This document shows positions 38,853 through 64,000 of a stretch of DNA of 64,000 nucleotides, piece after piece. The notes under the pieces are model-generated. The model saw only the letters and a list, made by a program, of their open reading frames with translations, searched no databases and was not told the DNA's origin. Made by a program: the position numbers and the translations under genes. This DNA is from Thiocapsa bogorovii. GTDB taxonomy: Bacteria; Pseudomonadota; Gammaproteobacteria; Chromatiales; Chromatiaceae. Within the stretch, counting starts at the first letter, position 1. Each line of letters starts with the position of its first letter. The stretch is from positions 5,329,501-5,393,500 of the forward strand of contig NZ_CP089309.1 of NCBI RefSeq assembly GCF_021228795.1, in the 5' to 3' direction.

Positions 38853-38874
38853 GTCTAAAAGTATATCTTAATTC

Positions 38875-42555: not shown

Positions 42556-42812
42556 GCCATTAGTCTCCTGACCCAAGTCGCCATGCCTCACCCTTATCGC
42601 CATGCTTCGCACGCAGCGGCCAGGGTATCTTCCAATCGTTGCTGCTCCCTTCCTAGTCCGCCCACCAATTCCGCAGTTGGCGTAGCTGAAAAGCAAGGTG
42701 CTGCTCATTATATTATCTAAATGCCGCACGCGTTTCAAAGTCGAATGAAGTGACGCGACCCCAGTTTGTTAGCACCATTGTTCATTCAATGTGTTGGCAG
42801 GAGATATTGACC

Positions 42813-44920: not shown

Positions 44921-45195
44921 CCTAAGGTTTCATGTCTTGTATACGCCGATTCCTAGCGTTGGATTGCGGATGCTCGCGGAAGTGGGCGTCGAGTCGATAG
45001 CGATGCTGCTCCAACTCGCTTGTCAGGGTGTAGAAGTTGAATGCCGTCAGGTTCTTGATACCACCTGTGGTGCTGATTTGCCGCCTTTTGGCGGCCCGAG
45101 AACCGTGGGGCCGCGTTAGAGACCCCTTGCCGCTTTGAGCGGCTCGTGACTGAAAGGCCCCGGCTTTGCCGGGGGATTGTCGCCGACGGAGCGCG

Positions 45196-45385
45196 ATCTC
45201 TTGACCAAGGCCCCGTAGTCATGGTCTGCTTGCTTGCCGCAACGTTGACTCTCCGTCCCATTGAGGGTGCGTGGACTTGGATCTTGAGCGTCCTGCGCTC
45301 ACCGCGCACATCGCTGGCAGTGGCGATATCAGGCAGGTCCAGCAGTGTCTGAAGGGTTTCTGCGTCAAACGTTTTGATGAGCTGC
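45196..45385 (-). pseudogene. ISL3 transposase N-terminal fragment
   Basis: The minus strand reads TFDAETLQTLLDLPDIATAS, then GERRTLKIQVHAPS, nearly the same as the start of the ISL3 transposase at 32608 (MFDIDTLQTLLNLPDIAIDR, GERRTLEIHVHS). It then shifts frame. The remainder of the element is absent. 45386-45527 has nothing recognisable. Confidence 0.75.
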
Positions 45386-45527
45386 GTCGCCTGCGCCCTC
45401 TTAGGTGTGGATACTCGTAACGCAACTGCCGAAGTTTCTTACTGAAGAGTTTCAGATCTGCGGTAAAGAGAAACGGAGAACCTGTATTGCTTAGGTATAC
45501 AGTCGACCTTGACGATCAACGGGCGAA

Positions 45528-46376
45528 TCAGTCTCTACGTTTCCCGATACGGAACCTAGATATCGCGTCGACGGCGATGTCTTTAAGGTAGATGGGACTG
45601 GAAAGCAGGTTTCTCCTCCAAAGTCGCTGCGGCTCGCGCAATAGACGGGGTAGCCACTCCAGACCGAGATTGCGTGCCCAGGTAGGGGCGCGCCTTTTCG
45701 TGCCGCTGTAGAAGTCGAAAACTGCACCCACCGCGCAGACGAGGGGGAGCCTGAGCAGGCTACGATTCGCCTCGATCCACTTTTCCTGTTTGGGCGCGGT
45801 CATCCCGACCCAGAGGACGTGCGGTGCGGCATCGTTAACCGTCTGGACCATTGCTCGGTTTTCTGAGATGGAGAAACTTCCCCTAAAAGGTGGAGATAGT
45901 GTTCCGCAAACCTGAATAGCTGGGAAATCTTTGCCCAGCTTGTTCTCGATGGCGTTAAGCACGGTTTGGGTCGAGCCCAGAAAGAAATAGCGGATTCCGC
46001 CAGCCTGTTGCGCAAGATGGGACAGGCCAAGAAAGAACTCGGTCCCCGCGACGCGTTCGCGGATGGGCAGCCCGAGGAGCTTGGCGCCCAGTATGATGCC
46101 GGCTCCATCGGGTAGCAGGATGCTAGCGCGGCGGAGCGCCGCGCGGAATTCCTGGTCCTGTTTCGCGACGACAATCGAATGGGGGTTGATGCAGTCGACG
46201 ACGTCTGTCGAAGCGCTAGAGCGGCTCATCCCAAGCGCGAGAGAGACATCTCCATGCAGTCCACGCGTGCTCACGTGGTAGCCGAGCAGGCATGCTGTGT
46301 GGTCGTGCCGTGGCAGGGCGTTCGAAGGCGGAGGGCTCGGTTGGCTCGGGTGGATTCCTTGTTCGTTATCCGTCAT
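45528..46376 (-). CDS. WecG/TagA/CpsF-family glycosyltransferase (GT26)
   Basis: 282 aa from ATG 46374-46376, with AGGAGGT just upstream; a GTG two codons earlier is possible. Family motifs: VDCINPHSIVVAKQD, ASILLPDGAGIILGAKLLG with the catalytic Asp, RERVAGTEFF, LWVGMTAPKQEKWI and CAVGAVFDFYSGTKRRAPTW followed by NLGLEWLPRLLREP. GT26 enzymes add ManNAc or ManNAcA (TagA, WecG) to undecaprenyl-PP-GlcNAc as the second step of assembly. This fits WecB, the UDP-HexNAc dehydrogenase and the WecA-like enzyme in the window. A peripheral membrane protein; TagA-type C-terminal membrane-binding residues (RLWRR, RIGKRR) are present. Confidence 0.9.
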   Translation of the reverse strand: MTDNEQGIHPSQPSPPPSNALPRHDHTACLLGYHVSTRGLHGDVSLALGMSRSSASTDVVDCINPHSIVVAKQDQEFRAALRRASILLPDGAGIILGAKLLGLPIRERVAGTEFFLGLSHLAQQAGGIRYFFLGSTQTVLNAIENKLGKDFPAIQVCGTLSPPFRGSFSISENRAMVQTVNDAAPHVLWVGMTAPKQEKWIEANRSLLRLPLVCAVGAVFDFYSGTKRRAPTWARNLGLEWLPRLLREPQRLWRRNLLSSPIYLKDIAVDAISRFRIGKRRD

Positions 46377-46446
46377 GCGCACCTCCTATGAAGCCGCTCG
46401 GCGGCGGGGTTCGATCAAGGGCTGGTCTCCCCTGCTCGATTCAGGG

Positions 46447-48791
<2,345 letters not shown>

Positions 48792-49202
48792 CGCCGGATC
48801 TATCGCCTCCGTGTGCTTGATCGCGTATCACTGTTGCGGGCGCGCCCGGTCGTTGTTTCGGGAAGCGTCGCTTTATCGAGTCAAGCCCGGTGGGCCGGGG
48901 ACTCGCAAATGCAGAAAAGCGCTTTGCTCGACGACGAACAAGGTCGCATCGGTCGGGATCGGTTCGTGCCGACGCCGACGGCAACCGCAACCGCTGGCCC
49001 GTGACCGGACGCCGAGGCGCTCATGAAGTTGCAGCGGATGATAGCACAAACCCATAACAGCGGGCGGTCCCGCGCGTCGTTCCGGGACATCCATCACGAA
49101 CGGTCCGGGGCCTGAGCCGTAAAGGTCGTCGTCTTCGTGCCTGAGATGGCGGGATGCTCAAGTGCAGACCGAGCTGGGTCGGCGGACGCGGGGCTACGGG
49201 CG
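48792..49202. other. Spacer upstream of the wzz gene, no gene seen
   Basis: About 410 bp, GC-rich, with no supported open frame and no sigma-54-like site I could find. It should carry the wzz promoter on the minus strand. Confidence 0.4.
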
Positions 49203-49233
49203 CAAAAAAGCCGCGGGTCAGATGGCCCGCGGC
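49203..49233 (-). terminator. Rho-independent terminator of the thioester-type VPLPA-CTERM gene
   Basis: On the minus strand GCCGCGGG-CCATCTGA-CCCGCGGC forms an 8-bp GC stem followed directly by TTTTTT. It lies about 60 bp after the stop of the gene at 49294-50082. Confidence 0.85.
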
Positions 49234-49293
49234 GTTCCTATCTGTGCAGCATCGGCCCGATGTTTCGGGCGGATGCGGCCGAGCACAGTCCTC

Positions 49294-50082
49294 TTATGCG
49301 AGGGTTTCGCTCTCTTCGGTCTGCTTGCGATTCCGGCGTCCAAGGGCGGCGATGCCGAGCAGTGCGGAGCCGAATAGCCAAGCGGCGGCGGGGATCGGGA
49401 CTTGGCCGATGAAGTCTTGATTTGCCGTGCTTGTCAGCGCGACCAGGCCGCCCATAGCGGTCGCAGTACTCATCGCGTTGAGGTAGGCGGTCGCTTGGTT
49501 AAGGACGCCGGTGGTGAGCCCCGAGGTGATCTTCATGCTCCCGCCGGTGATGTCGTAGACAAATTCACCACTGGCGTTCGTTTGGCCCTCATGCACCACT
49601 TCCCAGATCGCGAGCTGCAGCGCCTGCTTCTGCACGTCCGTGAGGTTGCGAGCGTCGTTCAGCACGCCACTGGTGATCGCGGCACCAAGCAACTTCGCCA
49701 GGCTAGCCGCCTTAACGTCACCCATCGGACCTGCCGTTGAATCGGGTGCATTCGCGAGGCCAACCACGTCCCAAGTCCGACTCCCTGTTTGAGCGGTGTC
49801 ATCCAGATCGATGCAGAAGGTGACAAACTGGTCGGTCCCATACGTTAAGATCGGTCCCTCGGCCGCCGAGAAGTTAAAGATGCCGGTCGTCGTATTGCCG
49901 GTTTTTGTTGTCTGTGGGGAACCAGTGGGCGGAAGAACCACGGAGTAGCCGACACCACGGGTCTGTGTCATGCCACCGTAGGTTGCAGTCACCGTATCGG
50001 CCGCTGCCTGCCCGCTGAATGCCAATGCGCCGGCAAGTGCAAGCACGGATCCAACCGCGCTCAGTCTCATCATGGATTTCAT
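49294..50082 (-). CDS. Exported VPLPA-CTERM protein with thioester-domain-like Cys/Gln motifs
   Basis: 262 aa. Signal peptide residues 1-28 (cleavage near QAAA-D). The body has C90 in FVTFCIDLDD and Q156 in ALQLAIWEVVHE. The pair '[F/Y]C.D' and 'hQ.A.W' is the signature of thioester domains (TED), in which Cys and Gln form an internal thioester that can bond covalently to surfaces. The C-terminus is a classic sorting signal, VPIPAAAWLFGSALLGIAAL then GRRNRKQ. It has its own sigma-54 promoter (50191) and terminator (49203), so it is a monocistronic PrsR-type target. It is probably a matrix or surface protein processed by the exosortase. The thioester role is inferred from motifs only. Confidence 0.85.
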   Translation of the reverse strand: MKSMMRLSAVGSVLALAGALAFSGQAAADTVTATYGGMTQTRGVGYSVVLPPTGSPQTTKTGNTTTGIFNFSAAEGPILTYGTDQFVTFCIDLDDTAQTGSRTWDVVGLANAPDSTAGPMGDVKAASLAKLLGAAITSGVLNDARNLTDVQKQALQLAIWEVVHEGQTNASGEFVYDITGGSMKITSGLTTGVLNQATAYLNAMSTATAMGGLVALTSTANQDFIGQVPIPAAAWLFGSALLGIAALGRRNRKQTEESETLA

Positions 50083-50190
50083 CGTTTGACTCCCTGGTTG
50101 TGCGTCGCTTCGTTGATCGAGGACTGGACCGGCCGCATCGCGCTGCGAAGACTCGGGACAGCCGACAGTAGATACCGTCAGCTCTCTTTA

Positions 50191-50206
50191 AGCATCTCCC
50201 GTGCCG
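50191..50206 (-). promoter_or_regulatory. Sigma-54 promoter of the thioester-type VPLPA-CTERM gene
   Basis: On the minus strand CGGCACGGGAGATGCT matches TGGCACG-N4-TTGCW with GG and GC exactly 10 bp apart. Transcription would start near 50179, about 97 bp before the ATG. An AT-rich patch lies just upstream (about 50210-50235), where IHF-assisted bending could occur. Confidence 0.78.
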
Positions 50207-50776
50207 ACCTCATCATTACTTTTTTATTCAATGATTTAGGACGCGCTGGAGTCCCGTCCGGAGATCAGTCTTGGTCTCTGAGATTCCACAGATTGACGCT
50301 CTGGACGGGTTGGTTTTGCTGCCGCAGCGAAAACTTATTTTAAGTCATATGGATAGGTATTTTCGCCACTCTGGGGAGCTGTAAAAAAACCTGACGGTGA
50401 ATCCGGCTTTCAACCCGGCGACCATGAGCGTCCGTGGGGCTTTACTCCCGCAAGTCCAATAGCTTATCCCGGATCTGCCGTGCTCGCGCGGGTGTCAAGA
50501 AACTCGACTCCGCGTCGGCAGGATCAGATGATGACCGAGTGCGAGGAGTCGGACGGGGCCTTCTTTGTGGCGGGGATGTGTCCCGAGATCGACGAGGGTC
50601 GTTGTGACAACGGGATCCGTCGGATCGCCTTCGCTTCAATGACGGGGCTTCGGGTCAATCGGCCTCGTGGGCCCATTCGGCGTCTGCCTCGCGGCCTCAA
50701 CCTCGGGCGCGGGGTCGGAGGTTGTGTCGCTCCGATGCGTCCTCTCGGCCTTACGAGGGCTTCGGTCGTCTCCGGG
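50207..50776. other. Spacer between two minus-strand genes, no gene seen
   Basis: About 570 bp. The part near 50207-50350 is AT-rich and probably holds upstream activator sites for the sigma-54 promoter (CCCGTCC and GGACGGG half-sites near 50253 and 50307, about 50 bp apart). From about 50480 on, plus-strand frames are open but are shadows of the next gene or show no similarity. Confidence 0.4.
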
Positions 50777-52408
50777 TTAGGCGACCAGGCTCTTGACGAC
50801 GAGGATAGCGAGGGTCGCCGGGACGGCGAAACGCAGTGGATCCCAAGGGCCTTCGCGCTCCTGAATCAGGATCTCGATGGCATAGAAGAGCACGATGGCG
50901 GCGAGCACCTGGAGGCCGATCTCTCCAAGACCGAGACCTCTGAGCATCGGTGCCGTCAGGGCCGCAAGCAAGATCAGGACATCGAGCGTGCTCACGCGAA
51001 ATCCGGAGCTCGACAGACGTGTCCAGAGGCCCCCGAGCAGCGCAACCCCGCCGAAGAAGACCAGCAGACAGGGTTCGCAGATATCGATCAGGTGCGGCGA
51101 ATGCGCTACCAGGTAGACGACGATAACCGCCGCGGTGAAGGCGCTGATCCGCTCGAGGAAAAAGGCACTCTTCGTGCGTATCGCCAGGACGGCCAACGAC
51201 ACGACGAAGAGCGCTCCAGCCAAGACGCCGATGTCCGGTTCGACGGATTGCACGGACAGGGCACCGATGACGAGACACAAGGGAACCGTCAGGCTCAGGA
51301 TCCGAATCGGTGAACGCGTCACGAAACGGCGACGCCGTGCCCAGGCGCTGAACCTGACGAACGGGGTCCGATGCTCGTCCCGGCGTTTCAGACGCTCGTG
51401 GTAGTTCTCGAGCGTCCGGATCGCGGCCAGGATGAGTCCGCAGGACATCGCATAGGCGAGCAGGATCGCGCTGTCTGCGCTGTGCCGCATAAGATAGGCC
51501 AGGACGACCATCATGAACTGGGCGGTGTAGACGAGAGTGACGGCCTCGGCCTGAGTCAGGCCGCTGTCGATCAGCCGGTGATGCAGATGCGTCCGGTCCG
51601 CCTTGAACGGGGAATGTCCGGAGGCGATGCGCCGGACCATGACGGTGAGCATATCCAGGATCGGCAAGCCCAGCACGAGCAGGGGCAGGGCGCGGCTCAG
51701 GGCCAGATCCTCCCGCTGCGTGACCATAATGGCCAGCACCCCGGTCGTGAACCCCAGGAATTGACTGCCGGTATCGCCCATGAAGAGGCGTGCAGGGAAG
51801 GTGTTGAAACGCAGGAAGCCCAGAAGGGATCCGCCCAGGGCGGCCAGAAGAATCAGGAGAGAGCCCTCTGCACCGCCGTCGGCCACCAGCAGGAGGAGCA
51901 AGGCGGACCCCGCCAGTAGGCTGATTCCGCCGGCAAGCCCGTCGAGGCCGTCCGAGAGGTTGACCGCGTTGGTGATGCCGACCAACACCAGCACGGTGAA
52001 GGGAATGGCCAAGGGCATCGGCAACAGGCCGCCGGGGATGAAGGGGACCTCTTTGACGAGAACGCCGCCGGCGAGGACGACGACGGACGCGGCAAGCAGT
52101 TGGCCGAGCAGCTTCAGCCGGTAGTCGAGGTTGAAGCGGTCGTCGAGCAGACCGAACAGGAACAGCAGCGCGGCGGCGCCGAGGAAGGCCGCGAAAGGGC
52201 CTTCGATCGGCGCCCAGATGGCCACCGGGACCAAACAGCCGATCACGATCGCCACGCCGCCGATCCGCGGGATCTGCCCCTTGTGGACCTTGCGCGGATC
52301 GGGGGCGTCCATGAGGCCCAAGGGGCCGGCGACCCGAACGAGGAACGGGATCAGGGCCATCGCCAGGAACAAGGCTAGGACGAAGGCGTAAGCGGCACGA
52401 AGCTCCAC
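50777..52408 (-). CDS. WecA/MraY-like polyprenyl-phosphate HexNAc-1-P transferase with extended C-terminus
   Basis: 543 aa from GTG 52406-52408, preceded by AGGGAA; an ATG 14 codons upstream is the alternative. Family motifs: KVHKGQIPRIGGVAI, FGLLDDRFNLDYRLKLLGQL (catalytic DD), TNAVNLSDGLDGLAGG, RLFMGDTGSQFLGF and DRTHLHHRLIDSGL (UDP-sugar binding). The WecA-type core ends near residue 325. About 200 further residues contain five or six extra membrane helices of unknown role. It should start the repeat unit by moving HexNAc-1-P, probably GlcNAc-1-P, to undecaprenyl phosphate. This may have replaced the broken WcaJ-type enzyme at 199-1427. Confidence 0.9.
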   Translation of the reverse strand: MELRAAYAFVLALFLAMALIPFLVRVAGPLGLMDAPDPRKVHKGQIPRIGGVAIVIGCLVPVAIWAPIEGPFAAFLGAAALLFLFGLLDDRFNLDYRLKLLGQLLAASVVVLAGGVLVKEVPFIPGGLLPMPLAIPFTVLVLVGITNAVNLSDGLDGLAGGISLLAGSALLLLLVADGGAEGSLLILLAALGGSLLGFLRFNTFPARLFMGDTGSQFLGFTTGVLAIMVTQREDLALSRALPLLVLGLPILDMLTVMVRRIASGHSPFKADRTHLHHRLIDSGLTQAEAVTLVYTAQFMMVVLAYLMRHSADSAILLAYAMSCGLILAAIRTLENYHERLKRRDEHRTPFVRFSAWARRRRFVTRSPIRILSLTVPLCLVIGALSVQSVEPDIGVLAGALFVVSLAVLAIRTKSAFFLERISAFTAAVIVVYLVAHSPHLIDICEPCLLVFFGGVALLGGLWTRLSSSGFRVSTLDVLILLAALTAPMLRGLGLGEIGLQVLAAIVLFYAIEILIQEREGPWDPLRFAVPATLAILVVKSLVA

Positions 52409-52450
52409 AATGTTATTTCCCTGACGTGGCGGGCGAGGGTTTTCCGGCAT

Positions 52451-52689
52451 CGGCGTTAGGCGCCTGAGCGGAAAGTTTCGCCGTAGGTCGGGTTAGCGCA
52501 GCGTAACCCGACATTACGCTGCGCATGGCTGAAAGCCCTGTAGGGGCTGTAGGAGCTGTAGGAGCTGTAGCGGCGACTTTAGTCGCCTCTCCATCCTGGT
52601 CGTTCCTTTACCGAAATCACCTTGGAGCATGGCCACAACTCTTGTCGGGCGACTGAAGTCGCCCCTACCTGCGATAGTTGCCTTAGTAA
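52451..52689. repeat. Cluster of short repeats between the wecA-like gene and prsT
   Basis: Three kinds of repeat lie here. There are two GGCGACT..AGTCGCC dyads (52571, 52644), a GGGTTAGCGCAGCGTAACCC dyad (about 52490-52510), and a direct repeat of GTAGGAGCTGTAGGAGCTGT near 52540-52570. No gene. Confidence 0.6.
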
Positions 52690-52800
52690 CGGTTCAGAAA
52701 CAACTTAGCCATTCCGGTTCATTCTCCCCCCTCTCCCCAACCCCTCTCCCGCGAGGGGCGAGGGGCTAAGATGGATCACTTGTTATTGAATGGTTACTTA
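52690..52800 (+). repeat. Repeat family B, copy 2, reaching the prsT stop codon
   Basis: CGGTTCAGAAACAACTTAGC, CATTCCGGTTCATTCTCCCC, then CCCCTCTCCCGCGAGGGGCG, TAAGATGGATCACTTGTTAT and TGAATGGTTACTTA. The last three bases are the complement of the prsT stop, so the element ends exactly at the gene's 3' end. Confidence 0.88.
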
Positions 52801-55182
52801 GAGTGTTCCGAGAGCTGCCTTGGCATCGTCTAGGCCGGTGTAGGGTTGCTCGGTGGCGACGGCGGAGGTGAGCAGTGCCTTGGCTTCGTCGACTCGGCCG
52901 AGCTTGAGGTAGGTCATGCCGAGGTGATATTGGCGCTCGGGTGTCGTCTCGCCGGATGCCTGCACCTTCTCCAAGATCTCTGCGGCGCGCTGGTATTCGC
53001 CGACGCGGTAGTAGACCCAGCCCAGGGTGTCGAGGAAGGCGGATTGCTCGGAGCCCGCGAAGCGCTGTGCCAGTCCGAGGGCGCGGCTGAGATCGGCCGG
53101 CTCGTCGGCACGATGGTCGGCGAGCAGGACGGCCAAGTTGTTGGCCACCGCGTCCGCGGTCGGGTTGGTGGCGAGCAGGTTTTCGTATGCCTCGATCGCT
53201 TGATCGTAGCGGCCGGCCCGCTCGAGCATCATGGGCAACGTAAAGACCAGCAAGGGGCTGGCCTTGGTCGCCTCGATACCGGCCTCGAGTGTCGCGACGG
53301 CCGCGGCCGGGTCGCCGTCCGCGAGCTGGAGATTGGCGAGTCGCTCGTAGGCTAGGGGTGCCCCCGGCCGTTGCTCGATGGCCCGGGCATACTGCTCGCG
53401 TGCCGCCGCGGGATTGCCGGCGGCGATGTAGACCTCGCCCAACAGGTTGGTCGCGACGATGCTGTCGGCGTCCGCCTCCAGTGCACGGCGGAGACGTGCC
53501 TCGGCCTCATCGTAGCGCTCCAGGGCCAGATAGCTCCGGGTCAGGGCCACCAAGGGCTCGGCGGCCTTGGGCTCCTTGTCCAGCGCCGTCTCGAAGTGGG
53601 GGACGCTGGCCTCGATCTCGCCGCGGCGCTGCGCCACCAGCCCCTTGAGGTAGTGGCCCAAGGGGTGATCCGGCCGCGTGGCCAGCACCTGATCGGCGGT
53701 CTTCTCCAGGGCGTCCGTATCCGGCTGGCTCTCTTGGATGCGGGCCAAGGCGGTCTGGGCGATGTCGCTGTTGGGGTCGCGGGCCAGCAGGGCATCCAGG
53801 ATGACGCCGGCACCTTCGAGATCGCCGCTACGTTGGCGGAGTCCTGCAAGCTGCAGGTAGCCGGCGGGATCGTCCGGCGACAGCTCGATGGACTTCTTGA
53901 GCGCGTCCTCGGCGAGGGACAGCTCGTCGCGGGCGGCATGGGCCTCGGCCAGGATGCGCAGTCCGCCGATCGACTCGGGGTTGTTCCTGAGCAGGGTCCG
54001 CAGGTCGCCGATTGCCGTGTCCGGGTCGCCGGCCTGCAGGGCGATGGCGGCGCGGACGAGTAGGGCGTCGCTGTCCTGCGCATCCTTGGCGAGCACCTCG
54101 TTCGCGAGTGCTTCGGCCTCGTCGAGGCGCTCCTGCGCGAGGAGCAGCCCGGCGAGCTTGCCCCGCGCCTGCTGAGCGGCGGGGCTCTCACCGCCACCGG
54201 CGATGACCTCTCGAAAGAGCGTCTGAGCCTGCTCGCTGTCGCCTGCCTGCATGCGCAGGGATCCGAGGGCGAAGCGCAGATCCTGATCCTCCGGTGCTGC
54301 GGCGATGAAGGTCGCCAGGGTCTCGGCGGCCACTTCGACCCCCTGCTGGGTGGCCTGCAGCTCGACCAGCAGGAGCTTGGCCTGGCGATCCTCGGGCAGG
54401 GCGACGACGGCATCGCGCAGGGTCTGCACGGCCGCGGCGGTCTCCCCGCGTGCAGCCAGGTATTGGGCCAGGCGGGTGCGGTGGTCCAGGACCTTGGGCT
54501 CGCGCTCGATCAAGCGCTCGAGGACCGCGCGTGTGCCGGCGGTATCGCCCATCTGCTCGTTGATGCCGGCCATGGCCAGCATGAAGCGGAGGTCATCCGG
54601 GTGGGCGGCCAGCGCGGTCTCGAGCGCCTGTTTGGCGCCGGGCAGGTCATTGCGCTCGAGACGGATTTGAGCCAGGAGCGCGAGCGCCTCCCGGTCTTGC
54701 GGGGCCTGCGCGAGCGCGGATTCGGCATCCACCCGGGCCGCATCCAAGTCGCCTTGGCGGACACGGACGAAGCCGCGCAGGGCCAGCGCCGAGGCATCTC
54801 CGGGCTTCGCGGTCAACACGGCATCGGCCTGCGCCAGGGCCCCTTCGATGTCTTCGCTGGCGAGCAGCAAGGTTCCCAGCTTGACGCGGGCTTCCAGGTT
54901 CTCCGGGCTCAGCTCGACGGTCTTGGAGTAGGCCGAGTAGGCGTTGCGCCACTCTTCCTGCTGCTCCGCGATTTTGGCGAGCATGAACCAGGCTTCGGCG
55001 TCTTTCGGGTCAACCTGGAGCACGTTGCGGAACTCCAGCTGCGCCTTGACCAGGTCGCCCTCGTCGTAGAGGTCCAGGCCACGCTGCAGGTAGCTTTGGG
55101 CCCGGTCTTCCTGCCCGCAGCCCGCCGTCAAGGCGACGCTGCCGAGAAGAAGGAGAAGCTTCGCATAGGATCTTGGTTTCAT
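52798..55182 (-). CDS. prsT: PEP-CTERM system TPR lipoprotein PrsT
   Basis: 794 aa. The signal peptide ends in the lipobox LTAGC with Cys near residue 22, so the protein is a lipoprotein. The rest is a continuous array of about 20 TPR-like 34-residue repeats (AEAWFMLAKIAEQQEEWRNA, AYLQLAGLRQRSGDLEGAGV-type helices) ending with YLKLGRVDEAKALLTSAVAT. The length is slightly under that of typical PrsT (about 900). It is part of the exosortase/EPS machinery and is thought to scaffold assembly in the periplasm. A second, truncated relative forms the C-terminal part of the chimeric gene at 60526-62040. A TATAAT box lies just upstream. Confidence 0.92.
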   Translation of the reverse strand: MKPRSYAKLLLLLGSVALTAGCGQEDRAQSYLQRGLDLYDEGDLVKAQLEFRNVLQVDPKDAEAWFMLAKIAEQQEEWRNAYSAYSKTVELSPENLEARVKLGTLLLASEDIEGALAQADAVLTAKPGDASALALRGFVRVRQGDLDAARVDAESALAQAPQDREALALLAQIRLERNDLPGAKQALETALAAHPDDLRFMLAMAGINEQMGDTAGTRAVLERLIEREPKVLDHRTRLAQYLAARGETAAAVQTLRDAVVALPEDRQAKLLLVELQATQQGVEVAAETLATFIAAAPEDQDLRFALGSLRMQAGDSEQAQTLFREVIAGGGESPAAQQARGKLAGLLLAQERLDEAEALANEVLAKDAQDSDALLVRAAIALQAGDPDTAIGDLRTLLRNNPESIGGLRILAEAHAARDELSLAEDALKKSIELSPDDPAGYLQLAGLRQRSGDLEGAGVILDALLARDPNSDIAQTALARIQESQPDTDALEKTADQVLATRPDHPLGHYLKGLVAQRRGEIEASVPHFETALDKEPKAAEPLVALTRSYLALERYDEAEARLRRALEADADSIVATNLLGEVYIAAGNPAAAREQYARAIEQRPGAPLAYERLANLQLADGDPAAAVATLEAGIEATKASPLLVFTLPMMLERAGRYDQAIEAYENLLATNPTADAVANNLAVLLADHRADEPADLSRALGLAQRFAGSEQSAFLDTLGWVYYRVGEYQRAAEILEKVQASGETTPERQYHLGMTYLKLGRVDEAKALLTSAVATEQPYTGLDDAKAALGTL

Positions 55183-55203
55183 TGCATCTCTACCTTCGGA
55201 ATC

Positions 55204-55209
55204 ATTATA
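55204..55209 (-). promoter_or_regulatory. Likely -10 box of prsT
   Basis: A perfect TATAAT on the minus strand, 22 bp before the prsT ATG. The -35 region is poor. If used, the leader would be only about 15 nt, with GAAGGTAGAG as ribosome site. A sigma-54 site is not apparent here. Confidence 0.4.
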
Positions 55210-55319
55210 CCTTGCGTTCGCGGTGCACTGGCCGCGCGACCTGAATCATCGTGTACACAGCGTTGCTGGATCGTTGCGATCGAGATCATCCCGGACCGTC
55301 GTACGCTGAGATTGAACAC

Positions 55320-56849
<1,530 letters not shown>

Positions 56850-56970
56850 TGAGGCATACTCCAACGAGATCGGCGGATACAATCATACCGTGTGCCCGGC
56901 GAGACTATCTCACAAGAGGCCGTCGGAGGCGATGCCATGAACGGCTCGTCGCTTGGAGAGGTCTGCGTGC

Positions 56971-57519
56971 TCAAGACCGCTTTTGCGGCGCTCGGAGGCG
57001 GAATCCAATGAGCCCGAGCAGCGCGAATCCGAATAAGACCGCCGCTGACGGGATTGGAATCTGCGGTACACCGGCGCCGGGCGGCGTGACGGGCTCGGTT
57101 GCCCAAGTCCTGGGTATCTCAGGCCCCCCGATAACGGTCGGGAAGGGCAATGCAGCTGGGGGCTCGGTGCGTGTCTCGAGCGATTGCTGCTCTGCAGCCG
57201 TCCCACCTCCGCCCCCGCCGCCTCCGCCGGAAGCAGCGCCGCCGCCCGAGCCGCTGGCTCCCGAGCTCTGGGGTGGACTCGTCGACCCGAAGCTCGCAGC
57301 GAAGAAGGCCCTGGTGAGCGAGTGGACGTTGAGGTAGTGACCTTGCGGATCGATCTCGAAAGGACCGTCCGCGAGAAGAACTAGGTCCGGCGTATGTGTC
57401 GACAGCTCCGGTGAGACGAGGTCCGCTGCTGCGTCCATCGGGGCAGCAAGCGCAATACAGGTACCGAAGATGAATGGCCAGATCGGCCCGTTGCTGATGT
57501 TGGCTTTCACGAGAAGCAT
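56971..57519 (-). CDS. Small exported protein with a PEP-CTERM-like tail and a Gly-rich linker
   Basis: 182 aa from ATG 57517-57519, chosen because the signal peptide (NGPIWPFIFGTCIALAA) starts there; upstream codons lack similarity. After the signal come about 65 residues (DLVLLADGPFEIDPQGHYLN), a glycine/serine/proline-rich low-complexity linker (SSGASGSGGGAASGGGG), about 45 more residues, and the C-terminal tail VPQIPIPSAAVLFGFALLGL with RLRAPQKR. The tail fits an exosortase sorting signal (motif, helix, basic end) but deviates from the VPLPA form. It is probably a third substrate. It starts about 120 bp upstream of the dehydrogenase gene, on the same strand. Confidence 0.72.
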   Translation of the reverse strand: MLLVKANISNGPIWPFIFGTCIALAAPMDAAADLVSPELSTHTPDLVLLADGPFEIDPQGHYLNVHSLTRAFFAASFGSTSPPQSSGASGSGGGAASGGGGGGGGGTAAEQQSLETRTEPPAALPFPTVIGGPEIPRTWATEPVTPPGAGVPQIPIPSAAVLFGFALLGLIGFRLRAPQKRS

Positions 57520-57714
57520 CCTTGCGCGCCGCCGAGATAAGTCCACGACTGCGCGCGCTCGTTCGGCCGCCTCTTTTCGACAGCCCGGATGACGGAACCG
57601 AATGCCGAAGCATCTTCGGTGCGCCCTATATGGACCCGGTCGAGCCTCTCGCGTGTGCGGTCGAGGTTTCGATCGCACACGTTATCGGTGTGTGCTGGTC
57701 CGCTACAGGCTCTC

Positions 57715-57730
57715 ATCAAAGAGTGTGCCA
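57715..57730 (-). promoter_or_regulatory. Sigma-54-like site upstream of the Gly-rich sorting-signal gene
   Basis: On the minus strand TGGCACACTCTTTGAT has a perfect TGGCACA half and TTG of the -12 half, but GA replaces GC at -12. It lies about 195 bp before the chosen start. A leader this long and the changed base make it uncertain. Confidence 0.35.
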
Positions 57731-58327
57731 TGTCGCGTATCGGGCTTGATGCGGGACTTTCTAAAAGATAAGATTTATAGTAAACAGATTATTAAAAGAA
57801 TTAATGAAACTAATTTATGCGATCTGATCGGCACGATCGGCGTCGCGGCACGGTCCACAAGCCGGTCATTTGCCGTCGCAATATGACGAAAAGAAGCCGA
57901 TGGCGAGCGCAAAAGACGCCAGGTGGCCGCACGAATAGCAGGGTTAAAAGGGGGTTTGTTTCCCGACAGACAGAGGCGGGGGATGCGGGGTAGGGGCGAC
58001 TTTAGTCGCTTCGCGGTATCTCGCAGCTTTGGGTCGGGCGACCAAAGCCGCCCCCTCTCGCCTCTCGAAGCACAGACGTCACTGATCGTTGATGCGGTCA
58101 CGGCAGTGGCGTTCGAATGACCATCCTCAACAGAGGCCAGCCCCGGTGATCAGTCTGGCCGCGAGAGATGCACGCCTCGGCCTCCGAGTCGCAGCAATGT
58201 CTGGTTATTGGCACGCTCGATGCAGTCTTTCGCCTGCGGGGATCTCTCCTCACAAGCCAAGACCCGACTCCGTGACGCGACCCTGTGACTGGCACTCATC
58301 CGGCAGCGTTGCAGAGGGACTGAACCC
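57731..58327. other. Spacer with an AT-rich patch and dyad repeats
   Basis: 57768-57815 is strikingly AT-rich (possible upstream control region of the sorting-signal gene). GGCGACTTTAGTCGCT (about 57989) and GGCGACCAAAGCCGCC (58036) belong to the GGCGACT..AGTCGCC dyad family. No gene is supported. Confidence 0.5.
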
Positions 58328-58838
58328 TCATGCCCGCGGCGATGCATCTCCCGCGGCATCCATGCGATCGTCCGAGTGCTCCATCTGTGCCTGCACCGCC
58401 GTCAACCAGACCTCGCCGTCGGTATCATCAAGCAGGGCTTCGCCGAGCTGCTCGAGGGTCTCCGGCGCCCGAATCAGCGCCAACAGAACAGCGGCGCGCT
58501 CGGCGACCGCATCTCCGAAGCGCCGCCGAGCCTGGCGCTGCAGCAAGGCACGTTCGGATTCCAGACCCCGCTCTAGCCCTTGCTTCAACCCGCGCTCCAA
58601 CCCCCGCTCCATCCCCTTGCGCATGCCGATTCGCTCGGCCGTGGTGACGTATCGCATCTGCTCAGCCTCTTCGATGGCTTGAATGGCCCGATGGTCGTCG
58701 TCCTCCAACGGCTCGGGCAACGTCATCACCCGGTCGATGAAGGCATAGAGACTCAACACCTCGTCGCGGCGCGTGACCTTCTGCAGCTCCTTGTCGAGAA
58801 ACTCGAAGCCGCGCGACCAGTCGATGATGCCTGATTCA
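58328..58838 (-). pseudogene. Rpn-type PD-(D/E)XK nuclease/DUF4351 protein, C-terminal fragment
   Basis: The minus-strand frame starts abruptly with ESGIIDWSRGFEFLDKELQK and continues VLSLYAFIDRVMTLPEPLED, AEQMRYVTTAERIGMRKGME, a long run of (R/E)RGL(E/K)xG repeats, and the DUF4351-like end RRRFGDAVAERAAVLLALIR. The N-terminal nuclease half (PIDPKVDCVFKALLG...) is missing. A fragment of just that half is found at 63231-63330. The break coincides with a truncated toxin gene on the other strand, so a rearrangement joined them. Confidence 0.7.
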
Positions 58839-58848
58839 TGGCATTTGC

Positions 58849-59100
58849 TTGTTTCTCCTTCTCTACATCGCAAGCGACAACCCGGACACGGCGCGCGCTC
58901 TGCTGAAACGACTTCGCAGTCGCATCACGGACCTCGAGGACGCTCCGCACATCGGCAGGCCCGGCCGCGTCCCCGGCACGCGCGAGCTGGCTATCCCCGG
59001 AACCGCCCACATCGTTCCCTACCAGGTCAGCGGCGATCAGATGCAAATCCTGCGTGTCTATCACGGTGCCCGGCAGTGGCCGGATCACGTCGAAGAGTGA
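58849..59100 (+). pseudogene. ParE/RelE-type toxin, N-terminus lost
   Basis: The frame reads LYIASDNPDTARALLKRLRS, RITDLEDAPHIGRPGRVPGT, RELAIPGTAHIVPYQVSGDQ and MQILRVYHGARQWP. This is a ParE fold with the conserved C-terminal 'RV.H.aRqWp'. About 15 N-terminal residues (first strand and helix) are absent, because the sequence upstream belongs to the Rpn fragment. The only start, TTG 58849, is unconvincing. No antitoxin precedes it. Downstream 59101-59324 shows no gene. Confidence 0.7.
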
Positions 59101-59324
59101 CCCCGGAAGCACCGTCGCGTCGCCGGCATTGCCGGCGGCGAGTCTGCCGCTTACCCGACGCGACTGGCGGCGGGGTGGCTGTGGCCTCGATCTGTCCCGC
59201 CAGCGCCCCGTCGAGACCCGGCGGATGCCGAAAGGATCGGAGCCCCCCGGTGTCAGGATAGATGGACCTCACCGTCGGAGAAGTGATGTGAGTGACCATG
59301 CTGCAGGATCTCGCGGATCACTCG

Positions 59325-59741
59325 TCACTCGTCCTTCGGAATCGCGTTTCGCACGAAGGCCCGATACGCCGCCGCCCGCGCCTCGGGGGTCGATCCCAAG
59401 GCGGCGTAGCAGGGGTCCATGTCGAGCCAACCGGCCTCGGCTTCGCCGGCGTGCCATCGGTCGCTCGACCAGGGATAGGCTGCCGGCGTCTCGGTCATCC
59501 CCGCACGCACCGGGTTGAGCTCGACATAGCGGCAGCAGGCGAGCAGGTAGGCGTCGGTCTCCATCGGACGGGATTTGTAGCGCCCTTCCCACAGCGTGCC
59601 GGTTCGCACGGCCTGACGGTTGACGAAGCGCGTCTGCCGCCCGGCCAGGTGTTTCATGAGCCGCCCCAGATCCGCGATCGCCTCGCCGAGCTGCACGATC
59701 AAATGGCCATGATTCGACATCAGGCAGAAGGCATACACCTT
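59325..59741 (-). pseudogene. REP-associated tyrosine transposase (RAYT), 5' truncated
   Basis: The frame reads VYAFCLMSNHGHLIVQLGEA with the HUH motif HGH, then LGRLMKHLAGRQTRFVNRQA, GTLWEGRYKSRPMETDAYLL, CCRYVELNPVRAGMTETPAA and YPWSSDRWHAGE. All these belong to the Y1/REP transposase family. About 50 N-terminal residues (MPR...YHVT.RGN) are missing, and TAA at 59763-59765 closes the frame upstream. Possible cognate motifs AAAAGGGGACGG lie at 62076-63050. Confidence 0.8.
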
Positions 59742-59799
59742 GATGTCCCTCGGACTGTAGAATTAGCGGCGTCTGGTTATTTCGTCCGGAGAATTCCCG

Positions 59800-60024
59800 A
59801 TGACTGCGGCGGCACGGAAAGTTCTACATGAGGCCATTGGCCTGTCCGCGATGGAGCGCGCCGAGCTGATCGACGCACTCCTGCGAAGCTTCGATCCGAA
59901 GGCCGACGAGGGGATCGCGGACGCTTGGAGGGTTGAGGCCGAGTCCCGGATCGATGCCTTCGACGCCGGGGAGCTGACGGACGACTCCGCCGAGGCCGTG
60001 TTCGCACGGATCAATCGCCCGTGA
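59800..60024 (+). CDS. Addiction-module antitoxin (TIGR02574-like)
   Basis: 74 aa. HEAIGLSAMERAELIDALLR, SFDPKADEGIADAWRVEAES and RIDAFDAGELTDDSAEAVFA match the 'putative addiction module component' family that is paired with RelE toxins. The stop overlaps the toxin start by 4 bp (GTGA). The toxin reading frame is broken, so the antitoxin is now orphaned. It could still counter related toxins elsewhere in the genome. Confidence 0.85.
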   Translation: MTAAARKVLHEAIGLSAMERAELIDALLRSFDPKADEGIADAWRVEAESRIDAFDAGELTDDSAEAVFARINRP

Positions 60025-60316
60025 AGGTCCGCGTCCTCTCCTGCGCCGAGCGGGATTCGTGGACGCGGTCGATCGATACAACGCCGAGCGGCCGGGACTC
60101 GGCTACGAGTTTGCCGAGGAGGTTCGGTCCGCGTTCGAGCGTATCGGCGCATTCCCGGATGCCTGGCCCTTGTTCTCCGCCCGCTCGCGTCGCTGCATCG
60201 TGAGCCGGTTTCCTTACGGAATCCTCTACCAGAACCGGGCCGAGCGCATCCTTGTCGTCGCCGTCATGCACCTGAAGCGCGATCCCGAGATATGGCGGCA
60301 GCGGGCGAATGGATGA
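60021..60316 (+). pseudogene. RelE-type toxin, frameshifted near the N-terminus
   Basis: GTG 60021 gives VKVRVLSCAERDS, and then the frame is wrong. The following frame (from 60059) reads VDAVDRYNAERPGLGYEFAE, EVRSAFERIGAFPDAWPLFS and RCIVSRFPYGILYQNRAERI with LVVAVMHLKRDPEIWRQR. GATTCGTGGACG at 60054 lacks one T; GATTTCGTGGACG would restore 'ERDFVDAVDRYN'. The toxin is therefore inactive, while its antitoxin upstream is intact. Confidence 0.85.
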
Positions 60317-60525
60317 GTAGAAAAAGGCGCGCTGCTCGAACTCAGAAGGCGGGATTCTCCTGCGGCGAGATGAGTAAACTGCCGCCGAAACCGCACAGGA
60401 ACCGCTGGGATCAATCACCCGCGGCCACCCAGCTGCCTTTTTGCTATTTTTGCTTTTCCGCCGAGTTGCAACTCCAGCGGCGCTGCATCAAGCTTGCCCC
60501 GTACCCGGGGAACAAGGCATGAAGA

Positions 60526-62040
60526 ATGAGCGCACAAAGGATCACGATGCAGGCACTCAGAGCCCAACGCGGAGACATTCTTCGCGTCGCTCGCCGTTGG
60601 GTTGCGCATAACGTCCGCGTCTTTGGCTCGGTCGCCCGTGGCGAAGCCCAGCAGGCGAGTGACGTGGACTTTCTCGTCGAGTTCGCACCCGACCGCAGCC
60701 TTCTCGATCACGGTGGGCTCCTAAACGATTTGGATGCAGCGGTACTCGCCGAGGATGCCGAGAACGCCGATGCCCTGCTGGTGCGTGCCGGTATCGCGCT
60801 GCTACGAAAGGATTCGGATCAGGCGATCGCCGACCTGCGCGTGCTGCTCCGCAACGAGCCTGAATCGGTCGCCGCCTTGCGTTTGATGGCCCAGGCTAAC
60901 CTGCTGCGGGATGATCTCGCGTTGGCGCAGGACGCGCTGGAGAAGGCGATCAGGGTTGCTCCAACGGCACCGGCGGCCTATCTGCAGCTCGCCGGCGTGC
61001 GTGCGAACGCGGGTGACGTCGACGGCGCGGCGCAGGTCTTGGAGCGCTTGCTCACAGCCGTACCGAGCGATCCGGACGCGCAGACCGCGCTGGCCCGACT
61101 GCAGCTCGGCCAGCAGGACTTGGGCGCGCTGACGAAGACCGCGGAGCAGGCCCTGACCACGCGGCCCGATCATCCGCTTGGCTATTACCTGAAAGGCGTC
61201 GTGTTGGAGCGACAGGGCGATCTGGAAGCCGCCATCGAGCAGTTCGAGCTGGCGCTGGCCAAAAACCCTAACGCCGCGGAACCCTTGGTCGCGCTCGCGC
61301 GGACCTATGTCGCGTTGGAGCAGCCTCAACAGGCTCAGGAGCGCCTCGCGCAGTTGCTTGAGACCGCGCCGAACAACATCGTCGCCATGGATCTGCTCGC
61401 CGAGGTGTACGCGGCGACCGATCAAGGGGATCAGGCCCGCCGTCAATACGCCTCAACAATCGAGCGTGCGCCTGCTTCGCCCACGGCCTATCAGCGGCTC
61501 GCGCAATTGCAGATTGCCGACGGTGAGCGTGAGGCTGCACGCGCCACGCTGGAGTCCGGTCTCGAGCCGACCGGCCGCAATCCGAACTTGCTGTTGATGC
61601 TGGCGATGATGACGCACGAGGCCGGGGACGCGGCCGGGGCGATCGGGTTTTACGAGGAGGTGTTGGATCGATTCCCGTCGGCCGACATCGCGGCCAATAA
61701 CCTGACGATGCTGCTTGTCGAGCGCGGCGCCGACAATCCGGAGGACTTGGAGCGCGCGCGGGCGCTGACGGAGCGCCTTGCGTCGTCGGATCAGGCCGCG
61801 TTTCTCGATACCGCCGGTTGGGTTCAGTATCTGAGCGGAAACTACGACGGCGCGGTCAGCCTGATGGAAAAGGCGCGCGACATCGCCGAGCCCACCCCAG
61901 GACGCCAGTACCATCTCGGCATGGCATACCTCAAGGTGGGTCGCACGGAAGAGGGCAAGCGCCTTTTGACGAGTGCTGTCGAGGCGGGATCTCCCTTTCA
62001 GGGCATCGACGAGGCGCGTGCAATGCTTGATTCGGAGTGA
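60526..62040 (+). CDS. Chimera: MNT-type nucleotidyltransferase N-terminus joined to PrsT-like TPR array
   Basis: 504 aa from ATG 60526. Residues 1-68 are the start of a minimal nucleotidyltransferase: VRVFGSVARGEAQQASDVDF with the catalytic GSxARG-(n)-SDxD motif, then LVEFAPDRSLLDHGGLLNDL. At about residue 70 the sequence changes into PrsT-like TPR repeats (AEDAENADALLVRAGIALLR) and runs to the PrsT-like end YLKVGRTEEGKRLLTSAVEA. Compare the prsT C-terminus YLKLGRVDEAKALLTSAVAT. The TPR part aligns with the C-terminal 430 residues of PrsT but is diverged, so it is a paralogue, not a recent copy. There is no signal peptide, so the product would stay cytoplasmic. The frame is intact for over 500 codons. 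Confidence 0.8.
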   Translation: MSAQRITMQALRAQRGDILRVARRWVAHNVRVFGSVARGEAQQASDVDFLVEFAPDRSLLDHGGLLNDLDAAVLAEDAENADALLVRAGIALLRKDSDQAIADLRVLLRNEPESVAALRLMAQANLLRDDLALAQDALEKAIRVAPTAPAAYLQLAGVRANAGDVDGAAQVLERLLTAVPSDPDAQTALARLQLGQQDLGALTKTAEQALTTRPDHPLGYYLKGVVLERQGDLEAAIEQFELALAKNPNAAEPLVALARTYVALEQPQQAQERLAQLLETAPNNIVAMDLLAEVYAATDQGDQARRQYASTIERAPASPTAYQRLAQLQIADGEREAARATLESGLEPTGRNPNLLLMLAMMTHEAGDAAGAIGFYEEVLDRFPSADIAANNLTMLLVERGADNPEDLERARALTERLASSDQAAFLDTAGWVQYLSGNYDGAVSLMEKARDIAEPTPGRQYHLGMAYLKVGRTEEGKRLLTSAVEAGSPFQGIDEARAMLDSE

Positions 62041-62123
62041 GCGTGCGCAGCGGGTCAAGTTCGACAGGGACTGGCAAAAGGGGGACGGCCCCTGGCTAGA
62101 ATTCCTGAAAGATGGGGGAGACG

Positions 62124-62186
62124 CTGGATCCGACCCGGCTGTCCGCCTGGATGCAGCCCCCCATCATGAGGTCCGCCACGAGTACC
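62124..62186. repeat. Repeat family C, copy 1
   Basis: CTGGATCCGACCCGGCTGTC, CGCCTGGATGCAGCCCCCCA, then TCATGAGGTCCGCCACGAGT. Copy 2 at 63335-63397 is nearly the same. Flanked by AAAAGGGGACGG motifs (62076, 62197). The surrounding 62041-62332 carries no gene. Confidence 0.8.
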
Positions 62187-62332
62187 TTGAAACGGGAAAA
62201 GGGGACGGATTTATTTCTGCCCCCGCGTCTGCCTGCATCTCCTTGCACGCGGTCGACTGCGTGGAAAGATGGGTCTGGATCCCTCAGTAACAGACCACGA
62301 TGTTCGCCTAACAGGAGCAGGGTTCGGAAGGC

Positions 62333-62674
62333 TCAAAAATCGTCGTCATCCCCACTGGCCTCTTGCAAGTTCGTAGGGATGTCTCGACGGCCGTGCAGGA
62401 TGCGCAGCACATCGATCCGATCCGGGAACTCGATATAGAAGACCAGGTATGGGAATCGCTTTGCCTGGAAGCAACGCAGATCGCTGCGTTGCAGTGCGTG
62501 GGCGTAGCGAAGCGAACCGATTGCGGGCCTGTCGGCGATGAGATTCAGTGTGTGCTCGATGGCGTCGATGAACCGCAACTCCAAGGCCTCGCCGCCCTCG
62601 GCGAAATAGTCGTCGGCGGCTTCCTCCAGATCCCTTCGGGCTCGCTTGCGGCGGATGAGTGGTTTTCCCGTCAC
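62333..62674 (-). CDS. parE: ParE/RelE-type toxin
   Basis: 113 aa, ribosome-independent ParE-fold toxin, probably a gyrase inhibitor or mRNA interferase-like RelE. Motifs: RRDLEEAADDYFAEGGEALE, RFIDAIEHTLNLIADRPAIG, FPYLVFYIEFPDRIDVLRIL and HGRRDIP. The start overlaps the antitoxin stop (ATGA at 62671-62674), so the two are coupled. The frame is complete, with a Asp-rich tail. It is the only intact pair in this scrapyard. Confidence 0.9.
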   Translation of the reverse strand: MTGKPLIRRKRARRDLEEAADDYFAEGGEALELRFIDAIEHTLNLIADRPAIGSLRYAHALQRSDLRCFQAKRFPYLVFYIEFPDRIDVLRILHGRRDIPTNLQEASGDDDDF

Positions 62675-62913
62675 TCTTGGTTCGTCCGGCCTTTTGCGCG
62701 GACACGTAGGTCGTCAAAGTAGCCCTTGTCGAAGATGCCTTCGATCGGCGAACCGGCGCCCTCGTCGATGAGCTTGCGAAACATCACCACCTCGCGGTGC
62801 TCGCGGATCAGCTGGCGAAGGTATTCACTGGTGCTGGTGTAACTGGACTCGGCGACCTGTTCATTCACGAAGTCGCGCAGTTCGTCCGGCAGGGAGATGT
62901 TCATCGTGGCCAT
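62671..62913 (-). CDS. parD: ParD-type antitoxin
   Basis: 80 aa. The N-terminal ribbon-helix-helix is MATMNISLPDELRDFVNEQV, with SYTSTSEYLRQLIREH. The C-terminal toxin-binding tail ends GYFDDLRVRAKGRTNQE. It binds DNA as a dimer to repress its own operon and neutralises the toxin encoded next. AGCGAAC lies just upstream of the ATG. An AT-rich stretch at 62930-62955 may be the operator/promoter. Confidence 0.92.
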   Translation of the reverse strand: MATMNISLPDELRDFVNEQVAESSYTSTSEYLRQLIREHREVVMFRKLIDEGAGSPIEGIFDKGYFDDLRVRAKGRTNQE

Positions 62914-62989
62914 TGTGTTCGCTCCAGATTAGCAAAATTTGCCAAAGTATAGCGCTACTGTCGCTCACGGTGCTGCAACCCAACGAAAC

Positions 62990-63062
62990 CAAAAAGGGAC
63001 GGATTTGTTTCTGCCGCGACTGATCTCTGAGTGGGAAAAGGGGACGGTTTTTTTTAGGCACC
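62990..63062. repeat. AAAAGGGGACGG motifs (RAYT-linked type)
   Basis: AAAAAGGGACGGATTTGTTT (62991) and AAAAGGGGACGGTTTTTTTT (63038). Others are at 62076 and 62197. This type of 'GGGGACAGATTTATTT' word commonly surrounds RAYT transposase genes or their remains in proteobacteria. 62914-63230 carries no gene. Confidence 0.6.
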
Positions 63063-63230
63063 CGGCCGTGCCGAGGATCGTCCATCCGCGGCACACCTTG
63101 CGTTGATCCACTGGCCACGCTTCGGCTGCCCTGGCGTGCAGCCGGGTCGGCACGGGGATGCCGACCGACGCTTGCGACGGAGTTCGGTGCCCGCCTTCTC
63201 AATGCCCCGGTCGACCAATACACTCTTCGT

Positions 63231-63330
63231 ATGCACCGCCCCATCGATCCGAAGGTCGACTGCGTCTTCAAGACCCTGTTCGGGTCCGACGACCATCGCG
63301 ACCTGCTGATCCGCTTCCTCAAGGTCGGAG
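63231..63330 (+). pseudogene. Rpn-type nuclease, N-terminal fragment
   Basis: The frame reads MHRPIDPKVDCVFKTLFGSD then DHRDLLIRFLK, the invariant start of the Rpn / PD-(D/E)XK 'transposase' family. At about 63330 it runs into repeat family C and the similarity stops. The missing C-terminal half resembles the isolated fragment at 58328-58838 on the other strand. Confidence 0.7.
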
Positions 63331-63334
63331 CGAG

Positions 63335-63397
63335 CCTGGATCCGACTCGGCTGCCCGCCTGGATGCAGCCCCCCATCGCGAGGTCCGCCATGAGCAC
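63335..63397. repeat. Repeat family C, copy 2
   Basis: CTGGATCCGACTCGGCTGCC, CGCCTGGATGCAGCCCCCCA, then TCGCGAGGTCCGCCATGAGC. It differs from copy 1 at only a few positions and interrupts the Rpn N-terminal fragment. Confidence 0.8.
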
Positions 63398-63527
63398 CAT
63401 CCGCTTTCGCTTGCTGGGTGTTCGGCCTACCCGAGATCCAGGGTATCCTTGCCGGGGGATGTCGGCGACGCGCGCGATCGGCTGAACGTGAGGGGGTCTC
63501 GGATCCGATCGGCCGACCTCGTCACGG

Positions 63528-63631
63528 TTCAGAAACCACTTAGCTATCCCGGTTCGTTCTCCCCCTCTCCCCAACCCCTCTCCCGCGATGGGAGAGGGGC
63601 TAAGATGGATCACTTGTTATCCAGCGGTTGC
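63528..63631 (+). repeat. Repeat family B, copy 3, just upstream of rlmD
   Basis: GGTTCAGAAACCACTTAGCT, ATCCCGGTTCGTTCTCCCCC, CCCCTCTCCCGCGATGGGAG and TAAGATGGATCACTTGTTAT. It ends 21 bp before the rlmD start codon, so it lies in the rlmD leader. Confidence 0.85.
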
Positions 63632-63652
63632 CTACGCAATCGAATCTGTCGG

Positions 63653-64000
63653 ATGGAGACGCAGTCCGTGTCGAGAAAACGCAAACCACTTCCGCAGGAG
63701 GCTGTCGAGGCCGAGATCGAGGGTCTCACGCACGAGGGGCGCGGATTGGCGCGCTTCGACGGCAAGGCGGTCTTTATCGACGGTGCGCTGGCGGGAGAGC
63801 GTGTGCGTTTCCGCTATACGCGGATCCAGCGGCGCTTCGACGAAGGTGTCGTTGTCGAGGTGCTAAGGGCGTCGCCGGAGCGCGTGCTGCCCAAGTGTGC
63901 CCATTTCGGCGTCTGCGGGGGGTGCAGCCTGCAGCACATGGAGGCGAGCGCCCAGATTCGCGCCAAGCAGGACAGTCTTGCGGACGTGCTCGCGCGCATC
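63653..64000 (+). CDS. rlmD: 23S rRNA (uracil-1939-C5)-methyltransferase, start of gene
   Basis: The first 116 codons, running off the window. ATG 63653 gives METQSVSRKRKPL; a GTG at 63668 is the alternative. The TRAM RNA-binding domain is IEGLTHEGRGLARFDGKAVF with DGALAGERVRF. The iron-sulfur cysteines begin in CAHFGVCGGCSLQHM (CxxxxxCGGC). The SAM domain lies outside. In gammaproteobacteria rlmD usually follows cysM closely, and its position here marks the right edge of the inserted region. Confidence 0.92.
   Translation, partial: METQSVSRKRKPLPQEAVEAEIEGLTHEGRGLARFDGKAVFIDGALAGERVRFRYTRIQRRFDEGVVVEVLRASPERVLPKCAHFGVCGGCSLQHMEASAQIRAKQDSLADVLARI

Follow-up and report, generated by a model that had tools for sequence, protein, structure and literature searches.

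Gene-fusion chimeras made by deletion have a sharp joint between two genes of the same direction, with the reading frame kept. Among small nucleotidyltransferases, the minimal nucleotidyltransferase 1WOT is complete at 98 residues, and the antitoxin MntA of the HepT/MntA (type VII) systems carries the motif GSX10DXD, with Mg bound by D39, D41, and D71 in the Shewanella protein (PMC7641770). PrsT (TIGR02917) is a TPR lipoprotein of the XrtA/PEP-CTERM systems; a lipoprotein signal sequence is described for a protein of this type in PMC1569441, and prsT is reported in PMC9850573 as required for floc formation in Aquincola.

The locus considered here joins a part of an MntA-like gene to a part of a prsT gene. 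It lies in a stretch of 64,000 nucleotides of Thiocapsa bogorovii (contig NZ_CP089309.1, positions 5,329,501 to 5,393,500), which is called the window below and to which all coordinates refer unless another contig is named. An ORF on the forward strand (60526-62040) runs through 504 codons with no internal stop. Its first part is the beginning of an antitoxin-type gene and its second the C-terminal half of a TPR gene of PrsT type; the two are joined in-frame at one sharp point (Table 1). With a probability of roughly three in four, it is a young chimera that arose by a chance in-frame deletion, and the head of which is most likely inactive. Nothing was found that distinguishes it from deletion-made chimeras in general.

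The chimeric ORF and its joint

The intact MNT protein of genome G135 has 100 residues, of which the chimera matches the first 70 at 80% identity (tblastn, 60526-60735); as a query, it matches the window solely over these residues. At the DNA level (blastn), the similarity to the G135 MNT locus is 79% over 60463-60734, including 63 nt upstream of the start codon, and that to the intact MNT locus of G166 is 76% over 212 nt (60523 to 60734). The head has a Pfam NTP_transf_2 domain (PF01909, residues 21-56, 34.4 bits with a cut-off of 21) and the motif GS-VARGEAQQAS-DVD, i.e. GSX10DXD (GSVARGEAQQASDVD in the translation). The remainder of the ORF has matches to Pfam TPR models, and the best NCBIfam match of the whole ORF is PrsT (TIGR02917), with 180.3 bits, under the 312-bit cut-off. 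Codons 72-504 align with five prsT genes over 433 columns without an internal gap.

When the junction sequences are compared side by side, the DNA homology to the MNT parent stops at 60734 and that to prsT (G084) begins at 60741, with six bases between the two homology blocks. The original prediction, made from the letters alone, had described an MNT-type start with an intact motif that passes near 60735, in an open 504-codon frame and without a stop between the two parts, into PrsT-like TPR repeats that keep the PrsT C-terminus. All of these points agree with the present results. No sigma-70-like promoter was found in 60300-62400, nor a sigma-54-like site with one narrow pattern.

Table 1. 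Features of the chimeric locus and its surroundings (window coordinates)
Feature	Position	Strand	Basis
EPS/PEP-CTERM-type island, both prsT genes inside	3287..63657	.	Flank comparison, same-genus genomes
Intact own prsT, 794 aa, lipoprotein-like start (LLLLLGSVALTAGC, by eye)	52798..55182	-	
ParE-like	58849-59100		Pfam/NCBIfam
REP-associated tyrosine transposase match, upstream of chimera	59325-59738	-	NF047646 60.5 bits (cut-off 80); Y1_Tnp 27.7 (cut-off 23)
Unstab_antitox + ParE-like	59800-60316		Pfam/NCBIfam
MNT module leader (63 nt before start codon, common to G135 MNT locus)	60463..60525	+	blastn
MNT nucleotidyltransferase head, residues 1-70	60526..60735	+	G135 MNT 80%, PF01909, alignment, third-Asp column
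Junction, six bases	60735..60740	+	Outside DNA homology to both parents
PrsT-type TPR C-terminal half, codons 73-504 + stop	60742..62040	+	Homology, tree, AlphaFold2
ParD-like (below cut-off) + ParE-like	62333-62913		Pfam/NCBIfam

The truncated MNT head

The chimera shares with the HepT/MntA antitoxins the first 70 MNT residues, the GSX10DXD motif, and the module leader, and its relative in G135 precedes a HepT-like gene (PF01934, E 5.5e-22). In contrast to them, it has TPRs attached, has no HepT-like neighbour, and is missing both residues ~71-100 and the third Asp. The head is truncated before the strand that carries the third Asp, and the last helix and the C-terminal third (~residues 71-100) are gone as well. 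In the 28 distinct sequences kept from 34 head sequences, the third-Asp column is D in 26 of the 27 other MNTs and E in the remaining one. We take this residue, on the basis of the fold and not of a computed alignment, to be the counterpart of D71 of Shewanella MntA. Among the MNT matches listed at E ≤ 1e-6 (80 of 210 genomes), the one in the window is alone in stopping short of residue 80, and the second shortest extends to 84. The sole PDB match of the intact G135 MNT at E ≤ 0.01 is 1WOT (E 1.4e-25, residues 8-100); the chimera, unlike this complete protein, breaks off before the third strand.

A tblastn search of the window and its right flank with the G135 HepT-like protein (E ≤ 0.01) finds no HepT homologue. 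Elsewhere in the genome, far from the chimera, there are two HepT-like matches (38%), and two further MNT matches (29% and 37%) are likewise distant from it. The part of the head that is left does not deviate at any of the ten sites that are conserved in at least 90% of the other MNT rows. With the NCBIfam MntA model (NF047752, 60-bit cut-off), the head alone scores 24.7 bits, and three intact relatives score 34.9, 28.1, and 47.9 bits. The cut-off was therefore rejected as evidence, and the parent is best termed MntA-like and not a certified MntA, because its intact relatives (28-48 bits) miss the cut-off too.

For the AlphaFold2 model of the chimera, 24 sequences were aligned. Its TPR half is mostly above pLDDT 90, while residues 1-60 have block means of 29-55 and residues 61-70 a mean of 62, with helices and no strands. 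As a control, the intact G135 MNT was modelled from four sequences (itself, two further intact MNTs that had also entered the alignment of the chimera, and the head of the chimera), which gave a mean pLDDT of 88.3 and three strands in the best model, the third at 76-81; its five models span 57.8-88.3. Since the intact MNT models well on four sequences, the poor model of the head cannot be put down to a shallow alignment alone, although a low pLDDT is no proof that the head is misfolded. The third Asp is located in strand 76-81 of the intact model, i.e. in the lost segment. The joint falls inside helix 59-73 of the intact model, and in the chimera model a helix at 63-74 crosses it. A Foldseek search against the PDB gives TPR superhelices, e.g. 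O-GlcNAc transferase, and no nucleotidyltransferase among the best 50 matches listed.

It had been proposed that the ORF is either a decaying fusion or a new pairing of domains with a nucleotide-transfer head. The chimera itself is real; a working head is not supported, because the cut has taken away the last helix and the strand that bears the third Asp, along with the neighbouring HepT-like gene.

The TPR half and the two prsT lineages

The genome has an intact prsT gene ~5 kb from the chimera, the product of which scores 308.7 bits with TIGR02917, slightly under the cut-off of 312.2. It is 54% identical to the TPR part of the chimera over residues 69-501. In a tree of 29 C-terminal halves (the first 34 blastp rows minus six duplicates or fragments, plus the chimera), the TPR part of the chimera groups with two prsT genes of genus g51, from G084 and G078 (support 98/93). 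The intact prsT groups with a Thiohalocapsa prsT and with that of G176 (support 100/100). Therefore, the two prsT genes of this genome represent different lineages. The same grouping (98/93) led to the rejection of a recent copy of the intact prsT as the source of the TPR part.

Compared with PrsT, the C-terminal 433 codons of the chimera are collinear, and it shares its island with PrsK and PrsR. It differs in lacking the first ~364 codons (counted against G084), including the lipoprotein signal, in a presumably cytoplasmic location, and in having an intact prsT alongside. The missing PrsT signal peptide had been predicted correctly, as judged by eye from the sequence, in which the N-terminus is the MNT start. 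In the window and its right flank, N-terminal PrsT queries (tblastn, E ≤ 0.01) match only the intact prsT and the TPR repeats inside the chimera; by the same test, neither an N-terminal prsT remnant nor a HepT remnant is found near the joint. The intact prsT is presumably able to fill a role like that in floc formation.

More than one prsT-like gene is also seen elsewhere. In G173 (L151, contig G173:C49, 2217-14965), three prsT-like TPR genes (791, 794, and 823 aa) lie within 13 kb, with other ORFs between them.

Search for the fusion in other genomes

With residues 1-120 as the query, 105 of the 210 family genomes (this one included) have matches, and only the row of this genome covers 1-120 in full; the fusion is absent from the 209 others. 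In a class sample of 369 genomes (this one included), 21 have a match at E ≤ 1e-8, and no other row spans the joint. The full-length query gives, in 38 genomes (this one included), MNT-type or TPR-type proteins only among the matches listed. An order-level search, with 210 genomes as in the family, adds nothing further. On plasmids, one part or the other is found, never both, in five of five records and in the best 10 of 31.

Individual loci give the same picture. Among 188 of them, a frame with both parts occurs only in L001, L029, L098, and L155, all four of which represent the locus of the window itself. In a search of 67 genome-contig loci, no fusion was found; one of these, L085, matches residues 33-502 at 24%, and, as one of the 188, has no frame that carries both parts. 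In the family search, some prsT frames begin their alignment before residue 69 (the lowest being G221, 33-120, in an 802-aa frame), and some MNT rows with 31-37% identity extend to 81-102, their frames being 97-174 aa long except in G060 and G112; these rows cross the position of the joint, but none of them are fusions. At eight loci with long frames around the MNT match, no TPR match is found at E ≤ 0.01. A literature search for an MNT-TPR fusion or a toxin-antitoxin chimera found no paper that combines all the terms. The absence of the fusion from other genomes, which had been named as a point against it, thus holds within these searches (209 other family genomes and 369 class-sample genomes, this one included). 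Some of the genome collections may lack close same-species records, and same-species strains therefore remain unseen.

Origin and age of the chimera

The chimera probably arose as follows. The EPS island would have carried a second prsT gene, with an MNT-HepT-type module upstream of it or inside it. A single rearrangement, in the simplest case a deletion, would then have taken out the final third of the MNT gene together with the HepT-like gene and ~364 codons from the start of prsT, with the joint placed inside MNT helix 59-73 and the frame preserved. Any product would start from the leader of the antitoxin module and be cytoplasmic; its TPR solenoid would be well formed, and the nucleotidyltransferase head in front of it incomplete and most likely inactive. 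Measured against the divergence of the TPR half, the event would be young, so that stops would not yet have accumulated. The arrangement presumed for the parents was not found in any genome.

The age may be approached through selection. In a codon model of six genes and 433 columns, in which long branches make the ω values coarse, ω is 0.083 on the TPR branch of the chimera versus 0.060 on the other branches, which is no difference (2ΔlnL 0.37). On the TPR branch, ω = 1 is rejected (2ΔlnL 16.3), with a rough 95% range of 0.025-0.22 from the profile; a Ka/Ks near 1 in the TPR part, which had been named as a point against the fusion, is not what is observed (ω ~0.08). The length of the TPR branch is 0.38 versus 0.39 and 0.43 for the sister paths, and the chimera has private changes at 6 of 70 otherwise invariant sites, compared with 0-7 in the other 15 rows (16 of the 29 tree sequences were compared). 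There is no clear speed-up of the TPR half. The dN/dS of the head against two intact MNTs is 0.10-0.17, and that between these two is 0.14-0.18 (three methods).

When the actual ORF is left to mutate in a simulation free of selection (400 runs per setting), substitutions alone leave the frame open in 44% of the runs for 0.02 substitutions per site, and in 2% of the runs for 0.1; with an assumed 0.1 indels per substitution, these shares are 6% and 0%, respectively. Therefore, the chimera would be young if unselected; the strong constraint on the TPR branch likewise indicates that any neutral phase was short. The original prediction held that the diverged TPR sequence argues against a very recent accident. 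The TPR half, however, belongs to another PrsT subclade, and the 54% identity dates the split of the lineages and not the fusion; that argument therefore falls. For the same reason, the dating of the fusion by TPR divergence was rejected, and the chimera illustrates that a fusion cannot be dated by how far one of its parts has diverged.

Low ω, a joint that lies within a single contig and is crossed by none of the listed repeats, and the presence of the fusion in only one of the genomes searched fit a young or a kept chimera, and not an old decaying gene. That the TPR half shows no decay and the head no raised dN/dS speaks against a relic, and both also fit a chimera that has been kept. In such a maintained chimera, the MNT start and leader would serve only as a new cap for expression and folding, and the TPR solenoid would act in the cytoplasm as scaffold or decoy, e.g. 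for polysaccharide enzymes. This is rather unlikely. The constraint on the TPR branch (ω 0.083, 0.025-0.22) agrees with it, but cannot be placed after the joint. The frame has neither a stop nor an internal gap, the TPR half is modelled with confidence, and helix 59-73 of the intact MNT corresponds to chimera helix 63-74 across the joint; yet a normally exported lipoprotein domain would have to function in another compartment with an intact prsT 5 kb away, and the searches found no second genome with the fusion. The more specific proposal that an EPS TPR scaffold was moved to the cytoplasm by a captured antitoxin start, and kept for a new role, e.g. in holding EPS assembly enzymes or competing with the exported PrsT, is a little less likely still. 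If the gene is kept, it would represent a change of compartment for a PrsT-type scaffold.

The data on selection do not separate a recent relic from a gene that has been retained. The relic is favoured because the head is broken, the partner and the signal are lost, a second and intact prsT is present, and the fusion was found in no further genome. As an accident, the locus would be a clean example of how the partial loss of a toxin-antitoxin module beside a repeat-protein gene may leave a long open chimeric frame that resembles a new protein.

An assembly artefact that joins two unrelated loci would be in line with a joint seen in no second genome, but is improbable, considering that the genome is a single 5.65 Mb contig with a completeness of 99.99, that the frame is preserved over the joint, and that no repeat spans the joint among those listed (20 of 23 direct families and 25 of 27 inverted pairs). 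The possibility that the joint lies at a repeat or an assembly break, raised in the original prediction, is not borne out by these data. Least probable of all is a new functional nucleotidyltransferase-TPR enzyme, with a head that modifies TPR-bound partners as MntA does HepT: the head has an intact GSX10DXD motif and a low dN/dS, but its third Asp, last strand, and last helix are missing, the AlphaFold2 model shows no nucleotidyltransferase fold in it, and there is no HepT-like partner nearby.

The EPS island and the neighbourhood of the chimera

The chimera is situated near the right end of the island. The sequences that border the island on the left (to ~3286) and on the right (from ~63650) adjoin in nine of ten same-genus genomes, six of the nine being confirmed in longer stretches; in the tenth (G005), the left neighbour is not in the 1.5 kb compared. 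Therefore, ~60 kb are present here that are absent there. The genes at the borders are taken to be cysM-like and rlmD-like, names that are our own reading and not the result of a family search. No tRNA gene was found in the window.

Within the island, more than 50 kb from the chimera, there are matches to PrsK (691.5 bits, cut-off 300) and PrsR (673.7 bits, cut-off 502.6), and the island also has below-cut-off matches to XrtA-associated chain-length and tyrosine-kinase models. Two frames that look PEP-CTERM-like by eye (49294-50082 and 56971-57678) have no NCBIfam match at 1e-6 and no Pfam match above the cut-off.

Genes of toxin-antitoxin type flank the chimera on both sides (Table 1). The ParD/ParE-like pair to its right is bracketed by 78-nt direct repeats (62109-62186 and 63321-63398) that are 85% identical. 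A TviB-like nucleotide-sugar dehydrogenase gene (55320-56882, reverse strand; 591.7 bits with a cut-off of 592) has an in-frame insert of ~70 residues that consists of a tandem repeat, which looks like an intergenic palindromic repeat read through in-frame.
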